From the NCBI GenBank assembly GCA_037200975.1, contig JBBCGI010000001.1, forward strand, positions 744,001 through 808,000: DNA of 64,000 nt, in the 5' to 3' direction. The DNA is from Pseudomonadota bacterium. GTDB taxonomy: Bacteria; Pseudomonadota; Gammaproteobacteria; Steroidobacterales; Steroidobacteraceae. Each line of letters opens with the position of its first letter. Within the stretch, counting starts at the first letter, position 1. This document shows, one piece after another, positions 5,588-62,634 of the stretch. Below the pieces are notes generated by a model. That model saw only the letters and a list, made by a program, of their open reading frames with translations. It did not search any database and was not told the origin of the DNA. The translations under genes were made by a program, and so were the position numbers.

Positions 5588-5628
5588 TACCATGCATATT
5601 CGGTGTCTGCCACCGAATATGCATGGTA
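5588..5628. promoter_or_regulatory. Perfect 18-bp palindrome upstream of ATPase gene
   Basis: Arms 5588-5605 (TACCATGCATATTCGGTG) and 5611-5628 are exact reverse complements around a 5-nt centre. The palindrome lies 14 bp before the ATPase start and 14 bp beyond the end of the epimerase gene. It has no adjacent T-run. Its position matches the palindrome at 3185-3221 before the degraded paralogue, but the arm sequences differ. It is a candidate autoregulatory operator or insertion-associated end. Confidence 0.65.
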
Positions 5629-8326: not shown

Positions 8327-10075
8327 TTGACTGTCGGATTAACGGACCGGCGCACATGGGCGTCACTGTTTCTTATTGCCGCGGCCCTCTCGGGCTGCGC
8401 CACGCCGCCTATCGACAGCTCGACTGGCAGTCTGCCGCCGGTCGTCGTAGCCGCACCTGAGTCTGCCAGTCAGCCGACGGTCTCCGGCCCCAGCCTGCCT
8501 GCCTCCGCCAGGCGCACGCCTGCCAAGGCGGCCAGCACTGCGGCCCCTGCCCTCGTCGACCTGACCGCTGCCACGGCGCCGATCGAGACGAATGACGCCG
8601 CGATCGAAGCCGAGGAAGCTCTGGCAGTAGAAGGCGGCGCAGCCGATGGCACTCATACCCTCGCTGGCCTCACGCCCGAACAATATCCCGACGTATTCGA
8701 CCGCATCCGCGCGGGCTTCAAGATCGACGACGTCGAGTCGCCGCGCATTGACCAGCAGCTGGCGTTCTACGCCAACAACCCGGATTACCTCGAACGGGTG
8801 TTCGGCCGTGCCGTGCCGTACATGCACCACATCGTCAAGGAAATCGAGTCGCGCGGCATGCCGCTCGAGCTCGCGTTGCTGCCGGTCGTGGAAAGCGCCT
8901 TCGAGCCCTATGCCCAGTCGTGGGTGCGCGCCAACGGCCTGTGGCAGTTCATGCCCGGCACCGGCGAACGGTTCGGTCTCAAGCAGGACTGGTGGTACGA
9001 CGGCCGCCGCGACGTCGTGGCTTCCACGCGCGCCGCGCTCGATTACCTGCAGTACATGCACGATGAATTCTTCGACGACTGGCTGCTGGCCATCGCCGCG
9101 TACAACTGCGGCGAATTCCGCGTGCAGCGCGAGGTGAACGCGAACCGCGCTGCCGGCAAGCCGGTCGATTTCTTCAGCCTGCATCTGCCCGCCGAAACGC
9201 GCGCCTATGTGCCCAAGCTGCTCGCGATGCGCCGCCTGGTCGCGAACCCGGAGGATTACGGCATCGCGTTCAGCCCGATTCCGAACGAGCCGTACTTCGT
9301 GAAAGTGGACACGGGCGGGCAGCTCGATCTCACGCTCGCCGCCGAGCTCGCGGGCATCACGCTCGACGAAGTGTACGAACTGAACCCCGGCTTCCATCGC
9401 TGGGCCACCGATCCGGCCGGCCCGCACTTCCTGCTGCTGCCGCGCGACACCGCCGACGCGTTCCGCCGCAACCTCGAACTACTGAGCCCCGACGAACGCG
9501 TGCGCGTCTCGCTGCACACCGTCAAGAAGGGCGAGTCGGTTGCCACGATCGCGAAGAAGTACAAGACGCAGACCATTGTCGTGCGCGACATGAACAACCT
9601 CGGCACCGAGCCACTCGTGGTCGGCACCGAGCTGCGCGTGCCGACCGCCGTGGTCAATCTGCCGCCCAAGGTCATGCTGGCCGCCGCTCGCGTCGATGGC
9701 TCTGGCGGCCGCTCCGGCCGCCCTGCCGTGCACGTGGTGCGCAGTGGCGATTCGCTGTGGCGTATCGCCAAGCGCCATCGCATGAACGTCGCGACGCTCG
9801 CCCGCATGAATGGCATGGGCACGGGCGACACGCTGCGGGCCGGACAGAAACTGGTTCTCAACCGCAGCGCGCCGCCCAAGACGACTGGCAGTCGTTCGGT
9901 GTCCTCGGGCACCTCGCGTGAAGTCAGCTACAAGGTGCGCAGCGGCGACACGTTGTCGCGCATTGCACAGGTGTTTGGCGTCACGGTGTCCGAACTGGTC
10001 AACTGGAACGGCATCAGCAAACAGGCGACGCTGCGTCCCGGCCAGAAGCTCACGATCAACGTCCGCCGCCGCTGA
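8327..10075 (+). CDS. mltD: Membrane-bound lytic murein transglycosylase D (lipoprotein, 3 LysM)
   Basis: Cleaves the glycan strand of peptidoglycan to 1,6-anhydro-MurNAc products in the periplasm. The 582-residue product has a lipoprotein signal ending LSGCA and a Thr/Ala-rich linker. Next is an SLT catalytic domain (LPVVESAFEPYAQS with the catalytic Glu, GLWQFMPGTGERFGL, LAIAAYNCGEF). Three LysM repeats near the C-terminus begin HTVKKGES, HVVRSGDS and YKVRSGDT. The start is a TTG at 8327 preceded by GGGGGTG. No later ATG would keep the signal peptide. fabI follows 66 bp downstream. Confidence 0.93.
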   Translation: MTVGLTDRRTWASLFLIAAALSGCATPPIDSSTGSLPPVVVAAPESASQPTVSGPSLPASARRTPAKAASTAAPALVDLTAATAPIETNDAAIEAEEALAVEGGAADGTHTLAGLTPEQYPDVFDRIRAGFKIDDVESPRIDQQLAFYANNPDYLERVFGRAVPYMHHIVKEIESRGMPLELALLPVVESAFEPYAQSWVRANGLWQFMPGTGERFGLKQDWWYDGRRDVVASTRAALDYLQYMHDEFFDDWLLAIAAYNCGEFRVQREVNANRAAGKPVDFFSLHLPAETRAYVPKLLAMRRLVANPEDYGIAFSPIPNEPYFVKVDTGGQLDLTLAAELAGITLDEVYELNPGFHRWATDPAGPHFLLLPRDTADAFRRNLELLSPDERVRVSLHTVKKGESVATIAKKYKTQTIVVRDMNNLGTEPLVVGTELRVPTAVVNLPPKVMLAAARVDGSGGRSGRPAVHVVRSGDSLWRIAKRHRMNVATLARMNGMGTGDTLRAGQKLVLNRSAPPKTTGSRSVSSGTSREVSYKVRSGDTLSRIAQVFGVTVSELVNWNGISKQATLRPGQKLTINVRRR

Positions 10076-10141
10076 TTTTCCTCTGCGCGGTTGAAGCTGG
10101 CAGAATGCCGGCCTCTCAATCGTTGGCAACAGGGGAAACAC

Positions 10142-10939
10142 ATGGGGTTCATGAACGGAAAACGCGCGCTGATCGTAGGCGTAGCGTCCGATCGTTCCAT
10201 CGCCTGGGGTATCGCGCAGGCGATGCACGCGCAGGGCGCGGAACTCGCGTTCACCTATGTCAACGAGAAGTTCAAGGAGCGCGTCGCGCCCCTCGCCGAG
10301 TCGCTGGGCTCGAAACTCGTGCTGCCGCTCGACGTCACCAACGACGCCGAGATCGAATCCACCTTCGCCGCCATCAAACAAGCCTGGGGTTCGCTCGACA
10401 TCGTCGTGCATGCGGTCGCCTACGCCCCGCGGGAGGCGCTGGCCGGCGGCTTCGTCGAAAGCACCTCGCGCGAGGCCTTCCGGGTCGCGCACGATGTCTC
10501 GAGCTACAGCCTCACCGCTCTCGCACGCGCCGCCAAGCCGCTCATGGCAGGCCGCGCTGGCGCCATCGTGACGCTGTCGTACCTCGGCGCCGTGAAATCG
10601 ATCCCGAGCTACAACGTCATGGGCCTCGCCAAAGCCAGCCTCGAGGCCAACGTGCGGTTTCTCGCCGCGGACCTGGGTGCGCACAACATCCGCGTCAACG
10701 GCATCTCCGCCGGCCCCATCAAGACGCTCGCGGCTGCGGGTATCGCCGGATTCCGCAAGATGCTGGGCCGCGTGGCCGATGTCGCGCCACTGCGGCGCAA
10801 CGTCACGCTCGAAGACGTGGGCAACGCTGCGGCGTTCCTGTGCTCCGATCTGGCCAACGGAATCACCGGGGAGATTCTCTATGTCGATGGTGGGTTCTCC
10901 ACGGTCGGAATGAGTTTTCCCGTGGAGGCTGAGGGCTGA
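10142..10939 (+). CDS. fabI: Enoyl-ACP reductase [NADH], FabI type
   Basis: Catalyses the last reduction step of fatty-acid elongation in the cytoplasm; this family is the triclosan target. The 265-residue protein has the FabI nucleotide signature [13 protein letters not shown] and the Tyr-x6-Lys active site in [26 protein letters not shown] and the C-terminal [15 protein letters not shown] follow. ATG 10142 has AGGGGA seven bases upstream. A longer in-frame start at 10091 lacks a ribosome site and adds unconserved residues. Confidence 0.96.
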
Positions 10940-10954
10940 GGTCTTCAGTTACCC

Positions 10955-11151
10955 GCGAGCGGGTGGCGAGGTGGAATGCTTCGCTGGCGCTCAAGGGAGC
11001 ACGCCCTTCGGGTTCCCGAAACCCGGGCTACGAAAAGCTACATTTTCTGAATTGGTTGCGCTGAGGGGCACTAGGGGCTTTTCGCTTCACGCCCGGGTTT
11101 CGGCGTGCTCCATTCGCGCCAGCGAAGCATTCCACCTCGCCACCCGCTCGC
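10955..11151. repeat. 133-bp repeat, copy 1, with 36-bp perfect inverted arms
   Basis: Core 10987-11119 matches, in reverse orientation, the core of copy 2 at 11331-11463 with roughly 10% differences. The core ends are themselves inverted: GCGCTCAAGGGAGC at one end, and at the other a sequence whose complement is GCGCGAATGGAGC. Outside the core, 10955-10990 and 11116-11151 are exact 36-nt reverse complements. These arms are not shared with copy 2. It lies between the convergent fabI and gltP-like genes. It resembles a MITE or REP-type element with no coding capacity. Confidence 0.85.
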
Positions 11152-11305
11152 ACGTCGCAGTACCCCACCGCCCTCCACCCACCGTTGTGCTATTCGGACA
11201 GGATCACATCGGCTTGGCGAATACGCACGATCAATGGCTCCGGGGGCCAACAGCAGAGCGAAGGCGAACGGCGGCGTTACAAGAAGCGGTTGCAGGGCGG
11301 TTCTT
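11152..11305. other. Spacer between the two repeat copies, no gene
   Basis: This is the 154-bp middle of the gene-free stretch 10940-11514. I see no supported reading frame, RNA gene or terminator in it. It is slightly less GC-rich than the flanking genes. Confidence 0.6.
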
Positions 11306-11488
11306 AGGCGCGCATCCCGCAGCCTCGTCAGCGCGAATGGAGCGCGCCGAAATCGGGGCGTTAAGCGAAAAGCCCCTAGTGCACATCCGCGCAACCAATT
11401 CTGAAAATGTAGCTTTTCGTAGCCCTGATTTCGGGAACCCGAAGGGCGCGCTCCCTTGAGCGCTGACGAGGCTGCGGGATGCGCGCCT
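11306..11488. repeat. 133-bp repeat, copy 2 (inverted), with 29-bp perfect arms
   Basis: The core 11331-11463 is the reverse complement of copy 1 with scattered substitutions. For example, the central words TTTTCGTAGC, AACCAATT and AGCCCCTAGTGC are shared. Its outer arms 11306-11334 and 11460-11488 are exact 29-nt reverse complements (inner half GCCTCGTCAGCGC) and differ from the arms of copy 1. It ends 26 bp before the stop of the gltP-like gene. Confidence 0.85.
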
Positions 11489-11514
11489 CTTATCCGCTCT
11501 CCAACCTCTTCTTT

Positions 11515-12819
11515 CTATCCCGCGACCTTTACCGGATCAGCCAACACAGCCGTCTCGCCTTCGAGGCGCGCCACGATTACGGCGCAACACGCGTCCGCCA
11601 GCACGTTGATGGCCGTGCGGCACATGTCGAGGATGCGATCGAACACCAGCAGTACGCCGATCGCTTCGGCTGGCAATCCCACCGCGGCAAGGATGATGGC
11701 AATGCCGACCAGTGACGCGGCCGGAATGCCCGCGATTCCCATGGAGGTGATCAGCGCGAGCACCACGACGGTGAACTGCGTCGTGAAGGAAAGATGCAGC
11801 CCGTAGGCCTGCGCGATGAACATCGCGGCGGCGCATTCGTACAATGCGCTGCCGGCGTGATTCACGGAGGCGCCGAGCGGCATCACGAATCCGGCGATGC
11901 GCTCGGAGACCTTCGCGTTGCGTTCGAGGCATTGCAGCGACAGGGGCAGCGTCGCGGACGACGAGGCGGTCGAAAACGCAGTCAACAGCGCCGGCGCCAT
12001 CGCCGGATAGAGGCGCCACGGATTCACTCGCGCGACGACGGCCATCAGGATCGGCAGAGCGACGAAACCGTACAGCGCGAGTCCCGCAACGACGCAGCCG
12101 GCGAACAACAAGAGCGGCCCGGCACCCTCGAAGCCCGATATGGCGACCACCTTCGCGATCAGCGCGAATACACCGATGGGCGCGAGCGTCATGACCCATC
12201 CGGTCATGCGCATCATGATCTGAAAAATGCCCTGCCAGAATCCGAGCACCGTCCCGCGGTGCGGCTGCTCGATACGCGCCAGGAAAAAGCCGAACAACAC
12301 TCCGAAGAACACCAGCGCGAGTAGTTTGGTATTGGCCGCGGCCTCGACGATGTTCGGCGGCACGACGCCCTTGATCGTGTCGAGGATGCTGGTTTCGGCG
12401 CGGTGTTTGACGCCCTCGGTGACCTCCGCGGCGTCGGCGGTCAGCGCCAGCAGGTGGCGCGCCGGTTGTCCGTCCTTGACGCCCGGCTCGACGAGGTTCA
12501 CCAGCAGCAGCGCGATGAGCACCGCGAGCAGCGTCGTGATGACGTAGAAACCGAGCGTCTTGCCGCCGAGCCTGCCGAGGTCCGGGCCGCTGCCGAGACC
12601 CGCGACGCCGGTGATCACCGACGCGAGGATGAGCGGCACGATCAGCATCTTGAGCAGGTTGAGGAACAACGTGCCGACCAGATCGAGCGCCGGCAGTAGT
12701 TTGATCGAACCGATGGCGCCGTCGGCGCCGAGCAGCCAGCCGGCAAACCCGCCGGCGACCATGGCGATCAGGATGGGGACGATGGGGGCTGACTTCGAAT
12801 CCGTTCCCGCCGCTCCCAT
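11515..12819 (-). CDS. Dicarboxylate/amino acid:cation symporter (DAACS, GltP-like)
   Basis: This 434-residue inner-membrane carrier has about eight hydrophobic segments and two re-entrant loops. Family landmarks are STASSSATLPLSLQCLE (hairpin 1 tip), ITSMGIAGIPAASLVG (hairpin 2) and DRILDMCRTAINVLAD in the last helix. The usual NMDGT motif of helix 7 is replaced by NHAGS in MPLGASVNHAGSALYE. The lost Asp is a sodium ligand in archaeal homologues, so ion coupling may differ. The gene starts 6 bp after the ppiD stop and is probably co-transcribed with it. The substrate (glutamate, aspartate or a dicarboxylate) is undetermined. Confidence 0.88.
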   Translation of the reverse strand: MGAAGTDSKSAPIVPILIAMVAGGFAGWLLGADGAIGSIKLLPALDLVGTLFLNLLKMLIVPLILASVITGVAGLGSGPDLGRLGGKTLGFYVITTLLAVLIALLLVNLVEPGVKDGQPARHLLALTADAAEVTEGVKHRAETSILDTIKGVVPPNIVEAAANTKLLALVFFGVLFGFFLARIEQPHRGTVLGFWQGIFQIMMRMTGWVMTLAPIGVFALIAKVVAISGFEGAGPLLLFAGCVVAGLALYGFVALPILMAVVARVNPWRLYPAMAPALLTAFSTASSSATLPLSLQCLERNAKVSERIAGFVMPLGASVNHAGSALYECAAAMFIAQAYGLHLSFTTQFTVVVLALITSMGIAGIPAASLVGIAIILAAVGLPAEAIGVLLVFDRILDMCRTAINVLADACCAVIVARLEGETAVLADPVKVAG

Positions 12820-12825
12820 GAATGC

Positions 12826-14727
12826 CTACTCGAACACGCCGGGGTTTTTGACGATCTTGGCTTTGCGCTTGGCCTCGTTGATGTACGCGGCCACATCGCC
12901 CTGCGCCGAGCGCTCGACCAGCGCTGCGTTCTGCTGCTGCACCAGCTGCGGATTCGCGCTCGTGTCGGCGACGCGCGAACGCGTCACGATGAACACGGCC
13001 GAACCATTCTCGATCGAAGCGGATTTCACGACCGCCTTTGCGTCCGGACGCGGCGCCTCGAAGATCGCCGTGCGCAGCGCAGCGGGGATCGATGGATCGC
13101 CGCGGCTCACGAAACGCGCGGGCTCGGCGGTGACACCCCAGCCTTTGGCCAGTGCATCGAGCTTGTCGCCACCTTCGAGTTTCGGGATGGCCGCTTCGGC
13201 GGCCGCCTTCGCCGCCGCTGCCCCGCGTTCCTGCTTGAGCAGCGCAACGATGTCATTACGCACCACCGCGAGCGGTTTCACTTCGGCCTTGTGATGCGCA
13301 GTGACCTTCACGAGCACCAGCCGGTCCTCGCCGATCGCGAGCGGCCCGCCGATCTTGCCCTGGTTGAGCGTCGCATCGCTGAATACGAGCTGCTGCAGCT
13401 CCATGCCCGAACCGAGTGGCTCCGCGCCGCCGCCGCGCAGGAATTCGGGAATCGTGCCGCGCGTCAGGCCGAGATCCTTCGCGAGTCTGTCGAGATCCTT
13501 CTCACCCTTCTCGATCGCGGAATTCATCTGCTCCTGGCGCTCGCCGAACAGTTCCGCCGCGTGTTGCTGGCGATACTGCGAATCGAGCTCGGCGCGCACG
13601 TCGGCGAACGGCTTCTGCTGACCGGCTTCGATTTCCTCGAGCTTGATCAGGTGGTACCCGAACTGCGATTTCACCGGGCCCGCGATTTCGCCGACCTTCA
13701 TCGAGAACAAAGTATCGCCGAACGGGCCGGGAAACTGCTTCTGCTCGACGAAGCCGAGCTCGCCGCCGTCTTTGGCGGTGATGTCGGTGGAATATTGCTT
13801 CGCCAGTTCCGCGAAATCCTTGCCGGCGCGCGCCTCGGCCAGGACCGATTCGGCTTTCTTGAGCGCGCCCGCGTCGTCGTCGCCGTTCACCGGGATGAGG
13901 ATGTGCCGCGTGCGGCGACGTTCGTCGAGCACGTAGTTAGTCTTGTTCTCGTCGTACATGAGCTGCAGGTCGGCCTCGGTGGGCGTCACCAGCGCGGCGA
14001 CCTGTTCGAGACGCAGCTCGGCGTATTCGAGCGCCACCGACTCGGCGGTCATGAAACGATCGCCGTTCTTGTCGTAGTACGCCTGGATCGCGGCATCGTC
14101 GATCGGCCCGTTGCCGGCGAACTGGTCGGCTGGCAACAAAGCGAACTGCACTTCGCGCTCTTCGTTCTCGAGGTTGTACAGGCGCTGCTGCTCGGCCCTG
14201 GTCAGGAAATAGGAAGCGCCGAGACCCTGCTGCAATTGATTGATCAGCAGCTGCGAACGCGTCTGGTCGAATACTTCGCGTTCGGTGATGCCGTTCTGCT
14301 GCAGGGCGATGCGCGCCTGCATCGGGTCGTACTTGCCGTCCGGACCCTTGAACGACGGGATGTTCTGGAACTCCGCGAGCACCTTCGACTGGTTGACCGC
14401 GTAGTGGCCGTCTTTCAGCCGGTTTTCGACGATCTTCTTGAGCACCAGATTGTCGAGAATGCTTTCCTGCATTTTCGCCTTCTGGTCGGCCGGGATATCG
14501 GTACCGAGCTGCTGCGACCAGCGCGCCTCGGTTTCCTGCCACGCCTTGGTGGCGTCCTGGACGGAAATGGCTTCGCCATCGACGGTTGCCGCATCTCTTG
14601 CGCCAGTGCCGTTGAAATCGAGCGAGTTGGACCCGCCCCAGAACGTGAAGATCAGTGCAATCGGAGCCAGCGCGAACCACGCCAGCCACTTGCGGCCATG
14701 GAGGCCATCACGGATACGCTGCAGCAT
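12826..14727 (-). CDS. ppiD: Periplasmic folding chaperone / peptidyl-prolyl isomerase PpiD
   Basis: An inner-membrane-anchored periplasmic chaperone assisting outer-membrane and exported protein folding. The 633-residue product has an N-terminal anchor (WLAWFALAPIALIFTFWGG) and a SurA-like N-domain. A parvulin domain at about 265-365 (RRTRHILIP, KDGGELGFVEQ, SQFGYHLIKLEEI) is followed by a C-terminal chaperone region. It follows lon in the classical lon-(hupB)-ppiD order, but hupB is absent and two tRNA genes occupy the gap. The gltP-like gene is 6 bp downstream. Confidence 0.94.
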   Translation of the reverse strand: MLQRIRDGLHGRKWLAWFALAPIALIFTFWGGSNSLDFNGTGARDAATVDGEAISVQDATKAWQETEARWSQQLGTDIPADQKAKMQESILDNLVLKKIVENRLKDGHYAVNQSKVLAEFQNIPSFKGPDGKYDPMQARIALQQNGITEREVFDQTRSQLLINQLQQGLGASYFLTRAEQQRLYNLENEEREVQFALLPADQFAGNGPIDDAAIQAYYDKNGDRFMTAESVALEYAELRLEQVAALVTPTEADLQLMYDENKTNYVLDERRRTRHILIPVNGDDDAGALKKAESVLAEARAGKDFAELAKQYSTDITAKDGGELGFVEQKQFPGPFGDTLFSMKVGEIAGPVKSQFGYHLIKLEEIEAGQQKPFADVRAELDSQYRQQHAAELFGERQEQMNSAIEKGEKDLDRLAKDLGLTRGTIPEFLRGGGAEPLGSGMELQQLVFSDATLNQGKIGGPLAIGEDRLVLVKVTAHHKAEVKPLAVVRNDIVALLKQERGAAAAKAAAEAAIPKLEGGDKLDALAKGWGVTAEPARFVSRGDPSIPAALRTAIFEAPRPDAKAVVKSASIENGSAVFIVTRSRVADTSANPQLVQQQNAALVERSAQGDVAAYINEAKRKAKIVKNPGVFE

Positions 14728-27585: not shown

Positions 27586-28331
27586 GCCGCGGCGACCACA
27601 CCCTGTTCGCGTCGGATCTGCATCTCGACAGCGAAGCGCCATGGGCGATCGATGCCTTTCTCGCCTTTCTCGCCGGGCCGGCGCGCGCTTGCGAAGCGTT
27701 GTACCTGCTCGGCGACCTGTTCGAAGTCTGGGTGGGCGACGACGACGACAACCCCGACAACGTTCGCGCCTGCGCGGGCCTCGCGGCGCTGACCGCGAGC
27801 GGCGTGCCGGTGTATGCGTTGCACGGCAACCGCGATTTCCTGCTGGGTGAAAGGTTCAGCCGCACCACCGGAGTCCAACTACTGCCGGATCCGGTCTCGC
27901 TCGACTTGTACGGTGTGCCGACACTGCTCAGTCATGGCGATGTCTTCTGCAGCGAAGATTTCTCCTACCAGGAACTGCGCAGCATCGTGCGCCAGCCGGG
28001 CTGGCAGCGGCGCTTCCTGTCGCTGCCGCTCGATTCGCGTCGCGCTTTGGCGAGCGCCGCACGCGCCGGCAGCAAGGCGCATACGCAGCGCACGATTCCA
28101 ACGATCATGGATGTGGATTCCGGAGCGGTGCTGCGCGCCTTTCGCGCCACCGGCGCGCGACGGTTGATCCACGGACACACCCATCGTCCCGCGATTCATC
28201 CCACCGTCGTCGATGGAGTCAGCGCCGAACGCGTGGTGCTCGCGCCGTGGTACGAAGCCGCAAGCTGCGTGGGAGTGAGCGCCGCCGGCGTCCGCGAGAT
28301 CGCGCTGCAAAAAGGGGACAGATCTATTTGA
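27582..28331 (+). CDS. lpxH: UDP-2,3-diacylglucosamine diphosphatase
   Basis: Hydrolyses UDP-2,3-diacylglucosamine to lipid X and UMP in lipid A synthesis. The 249-residue calcineurin-like phosphoesterase has metal ligands in FASDLHLD, LLGDLFEVWVGDD, LHGNRDF, LLSHGDVFC and IHGHTHRPA. The GTG start overlaps the upstream stop (GTGA). The last residues, LQKGDRSI, are not part of the enzyme family. They come from a palindromic repeat that has entered the 3' end and supplies the stop codon. Confidence 0.94.
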   Translation: MSRGDHTLFASDLHLDSEAPWAIDAFLAFLAGPARACEALYLLGDLFEVWVGDDDDNPDNVRACAGLAALTASGVPVYALHGNRDFLLGERFSRTTGVQLLPDPVSLDLYGVPTLLSHGDVFCSEDFSYQELRSIVRQPGWQRRFLSLPLDSRRALASAARAGSKAHTQRTIPTIMDVDSGAVLRAFRATGARRLIHGHTHRPAIHPTVVDGVSAERVVLAPWYEAASCVGVSAAGVREIALQKGDRSI

Positions 28332-28378
28332 AATAGATCTGCCTCTTTTTCAAATAGATCTGTCCCCTTTTTGCAGCG
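28303..28378. repeat. 31-bp perfect palindrome fused to both lpxH and miaE ends
   Basis: Arms 28303-28333 and 28348-28378 are exact reverse complements; each contains AAAAAGGGGACAGATCTATT. The 14-nt centre is also partly self-complementary. Each arm encodes, on its outward-facing gene, LQKGDRSI and a stop. The AAAAGGGGACA core recurs in the palindrome at 46360-46410. It could form a strong hairpin in either transcript and serve both genes as a terminator, although it has no terminal T-run outside the stem. Confidence 0.9.
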
Positions 28379-46359: not shown

Positions 46360-46410
46360 AAAAGGGGACATGCCTATTTTTCGAAGCGAAAAATAGGCAT
46401 GTCCCCTTTT
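46360..46410. repeat. 24-bp perfect palindrome between msrC and efp
   Basis: Arms 46360-46383 (start AAAAGGGGACATGCCTATTT) and 46387-46410 are exact reverse complements around a 3-nt centre. It shares AAAAGGGGACA and CTATTT with the palindrome at 28303-28378, so the two are related elements. It lies between convergent genes and ends 9 bp before the efp stop. It could act as a bidirectional hairpin terminator. Confidence 0.88.
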
Positions 46411-62565: not shown

Positions 62566-62634
62566 GATCAGGGTGCCGGGTGGGGAAAGTGGGGAAAGCG
62601 GCTTTCCCCACTTTCCCCACCCGGCACCCTAATC
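62566..62634. repeat. 33-bp near-perfect palindrome at a convergent junction
   Basis: Arms 62566-62598 and 62602-62634 pair with one mismatch around a 3-nt centre. The inner 29 bp are exact and contain GGTGCCGGGTGGGGAAAG. A short direct repeat GTGGGGAAAG occurs within each arm. The right end covers the stop codon of the DUF3501 gene. Sequence differs from the GGGGACA palindromes, but the position between convergent genes is the same. Confidence 0.88.

Follow-up and report, generated by a model that had tools for sequence, protein, structure and literature searches.

Mobile elements are normally defined by their conserved ends. MITEs, for instance, are short, non-autonomous and dispersed elements with inverted ends. 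REPINs consist of two inverted REPs and a spacer, and the available portion of Bertels and Rainey (2011, PMC3116915) describes them as hairpin-forming, dispersed and non-autonomous, with compensatory changes in their stems and with conserved ends around a variable spacer. TIRYT/TIRtron repeats, which carry the motif GGGGWSAS and form the inverted ends of Y1 transposase genes (Di Nocera et al. 2013, PMC3733652, available portion), have been linked to subclass 2.1 in the accessible part of PMC6006769. A different line of work, on template switching, proposes as its consequence that one arm of a hairpin is copied from the other, which accounts for simultaneous two-sided changes and for perfect stems; the cases described in the accessible text are RNA genes (Monttinen and Loytynoja 2022, PMC8794818).

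The hairpin family reported here shares with REPINs its inverted, hairpin-forming, dispersed and apparently non-autonomous character and its compensatory stem changes, but reverses their layout, having a conserved centre and site-variable ends. It came to light in a window of 64,000 nucleotides (positions 744001-808000 of a 4.65-Mb single-contig genome), where a composite of two hairpins sits between convergent fabI and GltP/DctA-like symporter genes:

10091-10939, + strand: fabI; the top NCBIfam matches are FabI models, with listed scores under the cut-offs
10931-11513 (approximate), no strand: whole composite, including decayed outer pairing at 10931-11175 and 11281-11513; the stretch shared with the composite at 320 kb
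10955-10990, + strand: left arm of hairpin 1, 36 bp, 36/36 complementary to 11116-11151, its final 4 bases within the core
10987-11119, - in family orientation: core of hairpin 1, identified from own-genome copies and a covariance model match
11116-11151, + strand: right arm of hairpin 1, 36/36 pairing with 10955-10990
11152-11305, no strand: inter-hairpin spacer, 154 bp, no cargo gene recognised; aligns with the 320-kb composite
11306-11334, + strand: left arm of hairpin 2, 29 bp, 29/29 complementary to 11460-11488
11331-11463, + in family orientation: core of hairpin 2, forming with hairpin 1 the family's usual -/+ pair
11460-11488, + strand: right arm of hairpin 2, 29/29 pairing with 11306-11334
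11515-12819, - strand: GltP/DctA-like symporter; listed matches under the cut-offs

A sequence-only reading of this stretch had described two mirror-image cores, each between exact inverted arms of 36 bp or 29 bp. The observation is correct to the base, with 122 of 133 core positions identical (92%) and every arm position complementary, while the interpretation attached to it holds in part. Outside the perfect arms, pairing goes on in decayed form (60 bp at 83% and 54 bp at 87%), and stop codon to stop codon the gap between the two genes measures 575 bp. No terminator-like site was found at the pair, and no promoter-like site around it. A second composite, at 320 kb, has this pair of hairpins too, in unchanged order. 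Its arms are related ones that have changed together, and each window arm set has a diverged counterpart there (L002, L004); because of these counterparts, the description of the arms as unrelated between copies is true of the window pair and not of all copies.

This genome holds nine close copies of the core and a more diverged tenth at 1600657. All nine have nearly perfect inverted arms, and the tenth has a perfect arm of 38 bp. BLAST and exact-pattern searches had suggested that the core is confined to one genome, which proved wrong: the apparent confinement arose from sequence divergence, and relatives emerged once a covariance model was used. This model, built on the nine own copies and run over 200 genomes of the family including its own, gave one match in a genus mate (G003) and one in another genus (G123). 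The contexts of these two matches, used as queries, hit 10 of 11 chosen genomes; the core itself was matched in 8 of the 11, at many places and mostly without the query's arms, while the present genome (G000) and G001 were matched in flanks only and G002 gave no match. Since the own-genome model scores its own antisense strand at 52-64 bits, about the level of loci L222 (61) and L223 (47) elsewhere, such matches alone are no proof, and a sequence pattern search and a second-genus model were therefore used as well. The pattern search matched once per genome in 12 other genomes; L222 and L223 are hairpins, and the remaining 10 matches are not. Local alignment against the nine cores is weak for L222 (23-29, against shuffle maxima of 24-32 from plain shuffles) and better for L223 (30-38 against 26-35).

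The second-genus model, covariance model R2 (distinct from repeat R2 below), was built from 26 copies of that genus alone, yet it recovers every one of the nine close own copies, with E between 1.2e-8 and 1.7e-5, among them the window cores at 10985-11126 (-, E 2.4e-7) and 11324-11466 (+, E 2.8e-6). It likewise finds L222 and four of five supplied G003 copies with E no higher than 2.4e-7, and the remaining one at 4.4e-3, on the sense strand throughout, and its next match in the window after the two cores has an E of 0.024. Over 396 genomes of the order, in a search that missed the nine close own copies and G003, it matched nine genomes from three genera of one family; in the third genus (G153) two matches lie 345 bp apart, facing -/+. 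A weak model match in L126 (E 0.0012), outside the compared site, was taken as chance. The tally stands at 94 core matches, fragments included, in ten genomes of one bacterial family. It contains several fragments of 36-53 bp and omits self-antisense matches (G123:C45, G003:C94) and rows judged to be flank or mixed (for example, query 515-664, 664-814, G003:C3 and G003:C131); because the searches scored 7-40 candidates per genome, copy numbers are lower bounds and absences are weak.

The arms set this family apart. In the nine close own copies, 25-64 bp of arm were measured and between 0 and 2 mismatches occur per copy. From 40 retrieved regions of relatives, 55 copies with alignments of at least 100 bp were analysed (shorter fragments, in L296 and L311, were left aside), and in 49 of the 55 the arms reach 15 bp or more, with a median of 30 bp and 2.1 mismatches on average. 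Left and right arms of the same copy score at least 15 in 54 of 64 copies (nine own and 55 in relatives) and below 15 in 10. Exchanging arms among copies yields pairing in 4 of 3236 cross-genome trials and in 130 of 796 same-genome trials, 110 of the latter falling in G074 and 16 in the present genome:

G123: own arms 9/10, swapped 0/86
G101: own arms 5/6, swapped 0/28
G003: own arms 5/7, swapped 1/42
G000 (the present genome): own arms 9/9, swapped 16/72
G074: own arms 20/24, swapped 110/528
G088: own arms 1/3

Swaps in G074 pair often because arm types recur in that genome. Chance is excluded as the cause of arm complementarity. The further claim that the arms are locus-specific describes most copies, but it fails for the 130 same-genome swaps and for four own copies (L005-L008), which share their outer ends with the RAYT-linked GGGGACATGCC and end in GGGGACATGCCTATTTT, that is, repeat R1. 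Such ends are missing from the window copies, the 320-kb copies, L009 and the copy at 1600657.

Sites in the outer stem differ between copies at 35%, while within a copy 0-2 of 20 pairs are non-Watson-Crick; arm length changes in the own copies are mirrored on both sides, and stem changes occupy 56 two-sided cells against 7 one-sided. The between-copy difference, the within-copy match and the mirrored lengths together argue that one arm is copied from the other, in keeping with the arm homogenisation that the sequence-only reading had offered as one possibility. Template-switch maintenance as described for RNA genes, in the accessible account, differs in its setting, since here the stem is part of a dispersed repeat and most of its sequence has been replaced. 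The reading we lean towards is a palindromic mobile element, non-autonomous, in which the folded core is conserved and copying of one arm from the other keeps the two alike. Its two ends would be the paired hairpins; a putative enzyme supplied in trans would recognise these by their folded shape, whether as single strands or as cruciforms, and move the element. One arm may be repeatedly rewritten from the other, through template switching or a hairpin-primed step during movement; the arms would be alike because of this rewriting and would for the same reason drift fast as a block, sometimes ending in another palindromic repeat of the genome. The core, as the recognised part, would keep its asymmetry because asymmetry is what is recognised.

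It is also conceivable, if unlikely, that the core is an ordinary inserter landing in the centre of pre-existing palindromes, which would then be the arms and for that reason be site-specific and perfect. Palindromes do nest in this genome: of 31 distinct cases of repeat R2 (GGGGACAGATC), 20 have perfect outer arms of 10 bp or more around them, whereas swapped flanks give 2 of 930; the 20 are partly non-independent, since on visual inspection one junction is common to four of them and a second to two. For repeat R1 the figures are 6 of 33 against 0 of 1056. The outer arms in these nested cases are R1, R2 itself, other repeats or unique sequence, and at L031 an internal duplication is mirrored on both arms, something independent mutation would hardly produce. 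A GGGGACA-type repeat stands in the arms of four own and two G003 copies, and the available part of PMC3733652 reports REPs and REP dimers inside palindromes. Two further R1 palindromes (L048, L053) contain apparent core remnants, to which covariance model R2 gave no match. Both flanks of six of seven own sites (not L009) could be located in at least one of three genus mates, with no core seen in the gap at any of the six. At two of these six comparable sites (320 kb and L007) the gap in G001 is occupied by another palindrome, that genome's own version of the repeat, GGGGTCAG, which has perfect-arm extensions in 2 of the 16 cases examined. Such occupied gaps favour insertion into palindromes.

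Other unfilled sites hold no palindrome into which a core could have landed. The window locus in G001 is a 47-bp unaligned gap and the L008 locus in G003 a 35-bp gap, neither with a palindrome; at the L223 locus, the flank matches lie 0-9 bp apart in six genus mates and 321-329 bp apart in G123, so that the insertion exceeds the 193-bp hairpin. Moreover, the arms of L222 and L223 have no second full copy in the genomes searched, the one partial match (G003:C131) spanning the L222 arm and part of the L222 core. The bases bordering the core on the arm side are also similar between copies, reading CTTCG in seven own copies and CCTCG in the remaining two, and this homology weakens with distance from the core, the pattern of a single diverging stem. 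A point against the preferred mobile-element reading is that the comparisons gave no sign of recent movement, the matched flanks of genus mates being only 67-85% identical.

The fold of the core, part of the case for the mobile element, also bears on a reading that we consider improbable, in which the hairpins are a structured non-coding RNA family whose long perfect stems are held by RNA selection. The folding prediction called for by the sequence-only reading gave strong structures, with z from -3.8 to -6.0, for each of the five cores put to it. The conserved part takes the form of a three-way junction whose loops are asymmetric. It is made up of an outer stem, an internal loop (in this genome approximately GAAT against (C)TTGA), a middle stem, a main stem and a side mini-hairpin that has a three-base loop and a short bulge before it. 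Among the own copies, 99.6% of 477 pair cells are standard and 17 of 53 pairs show two-sided changes, a level reached in 0 of 500 shuffles. The second genus has the same three-way layout and side mini-hairpin, with two-sided changes in 15 of 31 pairs and two stem pairs broken in 7 of 26 copies; folds were made separately per group, as a MAFFT alignment of all 36 cores misaligned the G003 group and gave a poor consensus of 11 pairs. None of the nine own copies has lost the internal loop or the bulge, the second genus retains both in slightly altered form, and their position inside an otherwise nearly perfect stem suggests that they are under selection. Two-sided stem changes could also come from selection for an RNA hairpin. 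Yet at window 9900-12900 the top-scoring Rfam entry, a microRNA hairpin, reaches 44.7 bits where its gathering score is 137; for five relatives' loci Rfam gave no match at E <= 1, and no promoter-like site lies near the window pair. Stems of 30-60 nearly perfect pairs with few G-U probably exceed what RNA folding needs, and the copies are dispersed, absent from the orthologous sites compared and, in G101, placed around cargo.

Comparably doubtful is the proposal that the hairpins are REPIN-like RAYT/TIR repeats whose conserved spacer happens to be unusually long, and that the genome's RAYT-type enzymes move them. Two RAYT-type genes are each framed by their own inverted repeat, R1 or R2:

L057 1330-2025 and L058 approximately 870-1634: RAYT-type genes, each with its own inverted repeat around it

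RAYT-1 and RAYT-2 score 79.6 and 73 against NCBIfam REP_Tyr_transpos, under the cut-off of 80. R1, which ends four own core copies, also flanks RAYT-1, and the compensatory changes of REPINs (PMC3116915, available portion) have their parallel in the core. A cognate RAYT flanked by the repeat, as in REPINs, is present for R1 and R2 and lacking for the core, and among the six Y1 transposase (Y1_Tnp) genes of this genome none has a core copy adjoining it. Set against REPINs as they appear in the accessible text, the core family further differs in that its hairpins come in pairs, no RAYT stands beside the core and R1 ends occur in 4 of 10 own copies; moreover, the core is common to genomes in which it has other arms. 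The TIRYT/TIRtron repeats of the available portion of PMC3733652 accommodate R1 and R2, each of which forms the inverted flanks of a Y1 transposase gene, and R2 GGGGACAG fits GGGGWSAS, with R1 GGGGACAT off at the last letter. The core has no such motif, although R1 surrounds four of its copies.

Several observations on these and other palindromes deserve mention in their own right. Relatives of both RAYT-type genes in other phyla include several with their own GGGGACAG-like inverted repeats; a GGGGACAG string in PMC4853749 is a primer in the part of that paper available. Core copies L297 and L299 of G003 have GGGGACATTCCTCGTTTTC in their arms, which resembles a RAYT-type repeat native to G003. 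Judged by a simple test of open frames, positions between two gene 3' ends are taken by 13 of 16 R1 copies, 12 of 13 R2 copies and 6 of 9 cores, against 147 of 400 random places. The short R1 repeat, unlike the window pair, scores as an intrinsic terminator on both strands, as at the R1 palindrome GGGGACATGCCTATTTTTC of the window (46360-46410). The window also has an R2 palindrome GGGGACAGATCTATTT at 28303-28378 with a 6-bp site-specific extension CGCTGC/GCAGCG, a perfect 18-bp inverted repeat with a 5-nt loop at 5588-5628, and, at 62566-62634, a palindrome of a third repeat family (33/34 arm pairs), similar sequence to which forms the outer arm around an R2 copy at 1999571 (L107).

The suggestion that the element copies its target into both sides finds no support in the sites without the element, since the window locus in one relative (G001) and the L223 locus in six relatives lack core and arms jointly and leave room for neither, which is evidence against arms made from the local target.

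The arrangement of the hairpins in pairs also favours the mobile-element reading. Among neighbouring cores less than 1.5 kb apart, 20 of 22 pairs face -/+, one -/- and one +/+, four of the 22 depending on a partial partner (G074 C60, G101 C5, G101 C53, G088 C250). A composite of some 500 bp in G074 can for the most part be aligned across ten sites, more poorly for L274 and L275, and L280 contains an extra insertion. Three successive cores (-, -, +) stand in a row in L275 (G074:C6), from which it appears that composites may nest or recombine. In G101 (L293 426-1595) a toxin-antitoxin module, consisting of a TacA1-like antitoxin and a toxin with a PIN domain, lies between the members of one pair, whose inverted hairpin ends measure 214 bp and are 91% alike; no target-site duplication was found there by eye, and palindromic edges conceal duplications. 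The core family resembles MITEs in being short, dispersed and absent at the orthologous sites compared, with one pair around toxin-antitoxin cargo, and departs from them in having no fixed terminal sequence (as the swaps show, with partial sharing in G074) and in that each end is itself a hairpin. In outline alone, as a hairpin with bulges, it also brings to mind integron attC sites, which are marked by R-box and L-box motifs and stand in arrays behind an integrase gene.

Within the open-access literature, a scope outside which most subscription papers fall, we recognised no paper describing the core or site-specific perfect arms, and the hairpin family points to an undescribed kind of mobile hairpin with arms copied from one another. 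A bolder version, which we put forward tentatively and regard as possible rather than probable, is mobile DNA of a class in which recognition depends on the folded core instead of the end sequences. Self-templated copying would rewrite the arms at each site and give every copy private, self-complementary ends, and mirror pairs would be mobile units able to carry genes such as toxin-antitoxin modules. A conserved centre with mostly private yet self-matching ends offers natural data that could test how a long stem holds its perfect pairing as its sequence turns over, and whether fold alone is enough for an enzyme to recognise an element. The genome that carries this family nests palindromes in palindromes many times over, its RAYT-linked repeats included.
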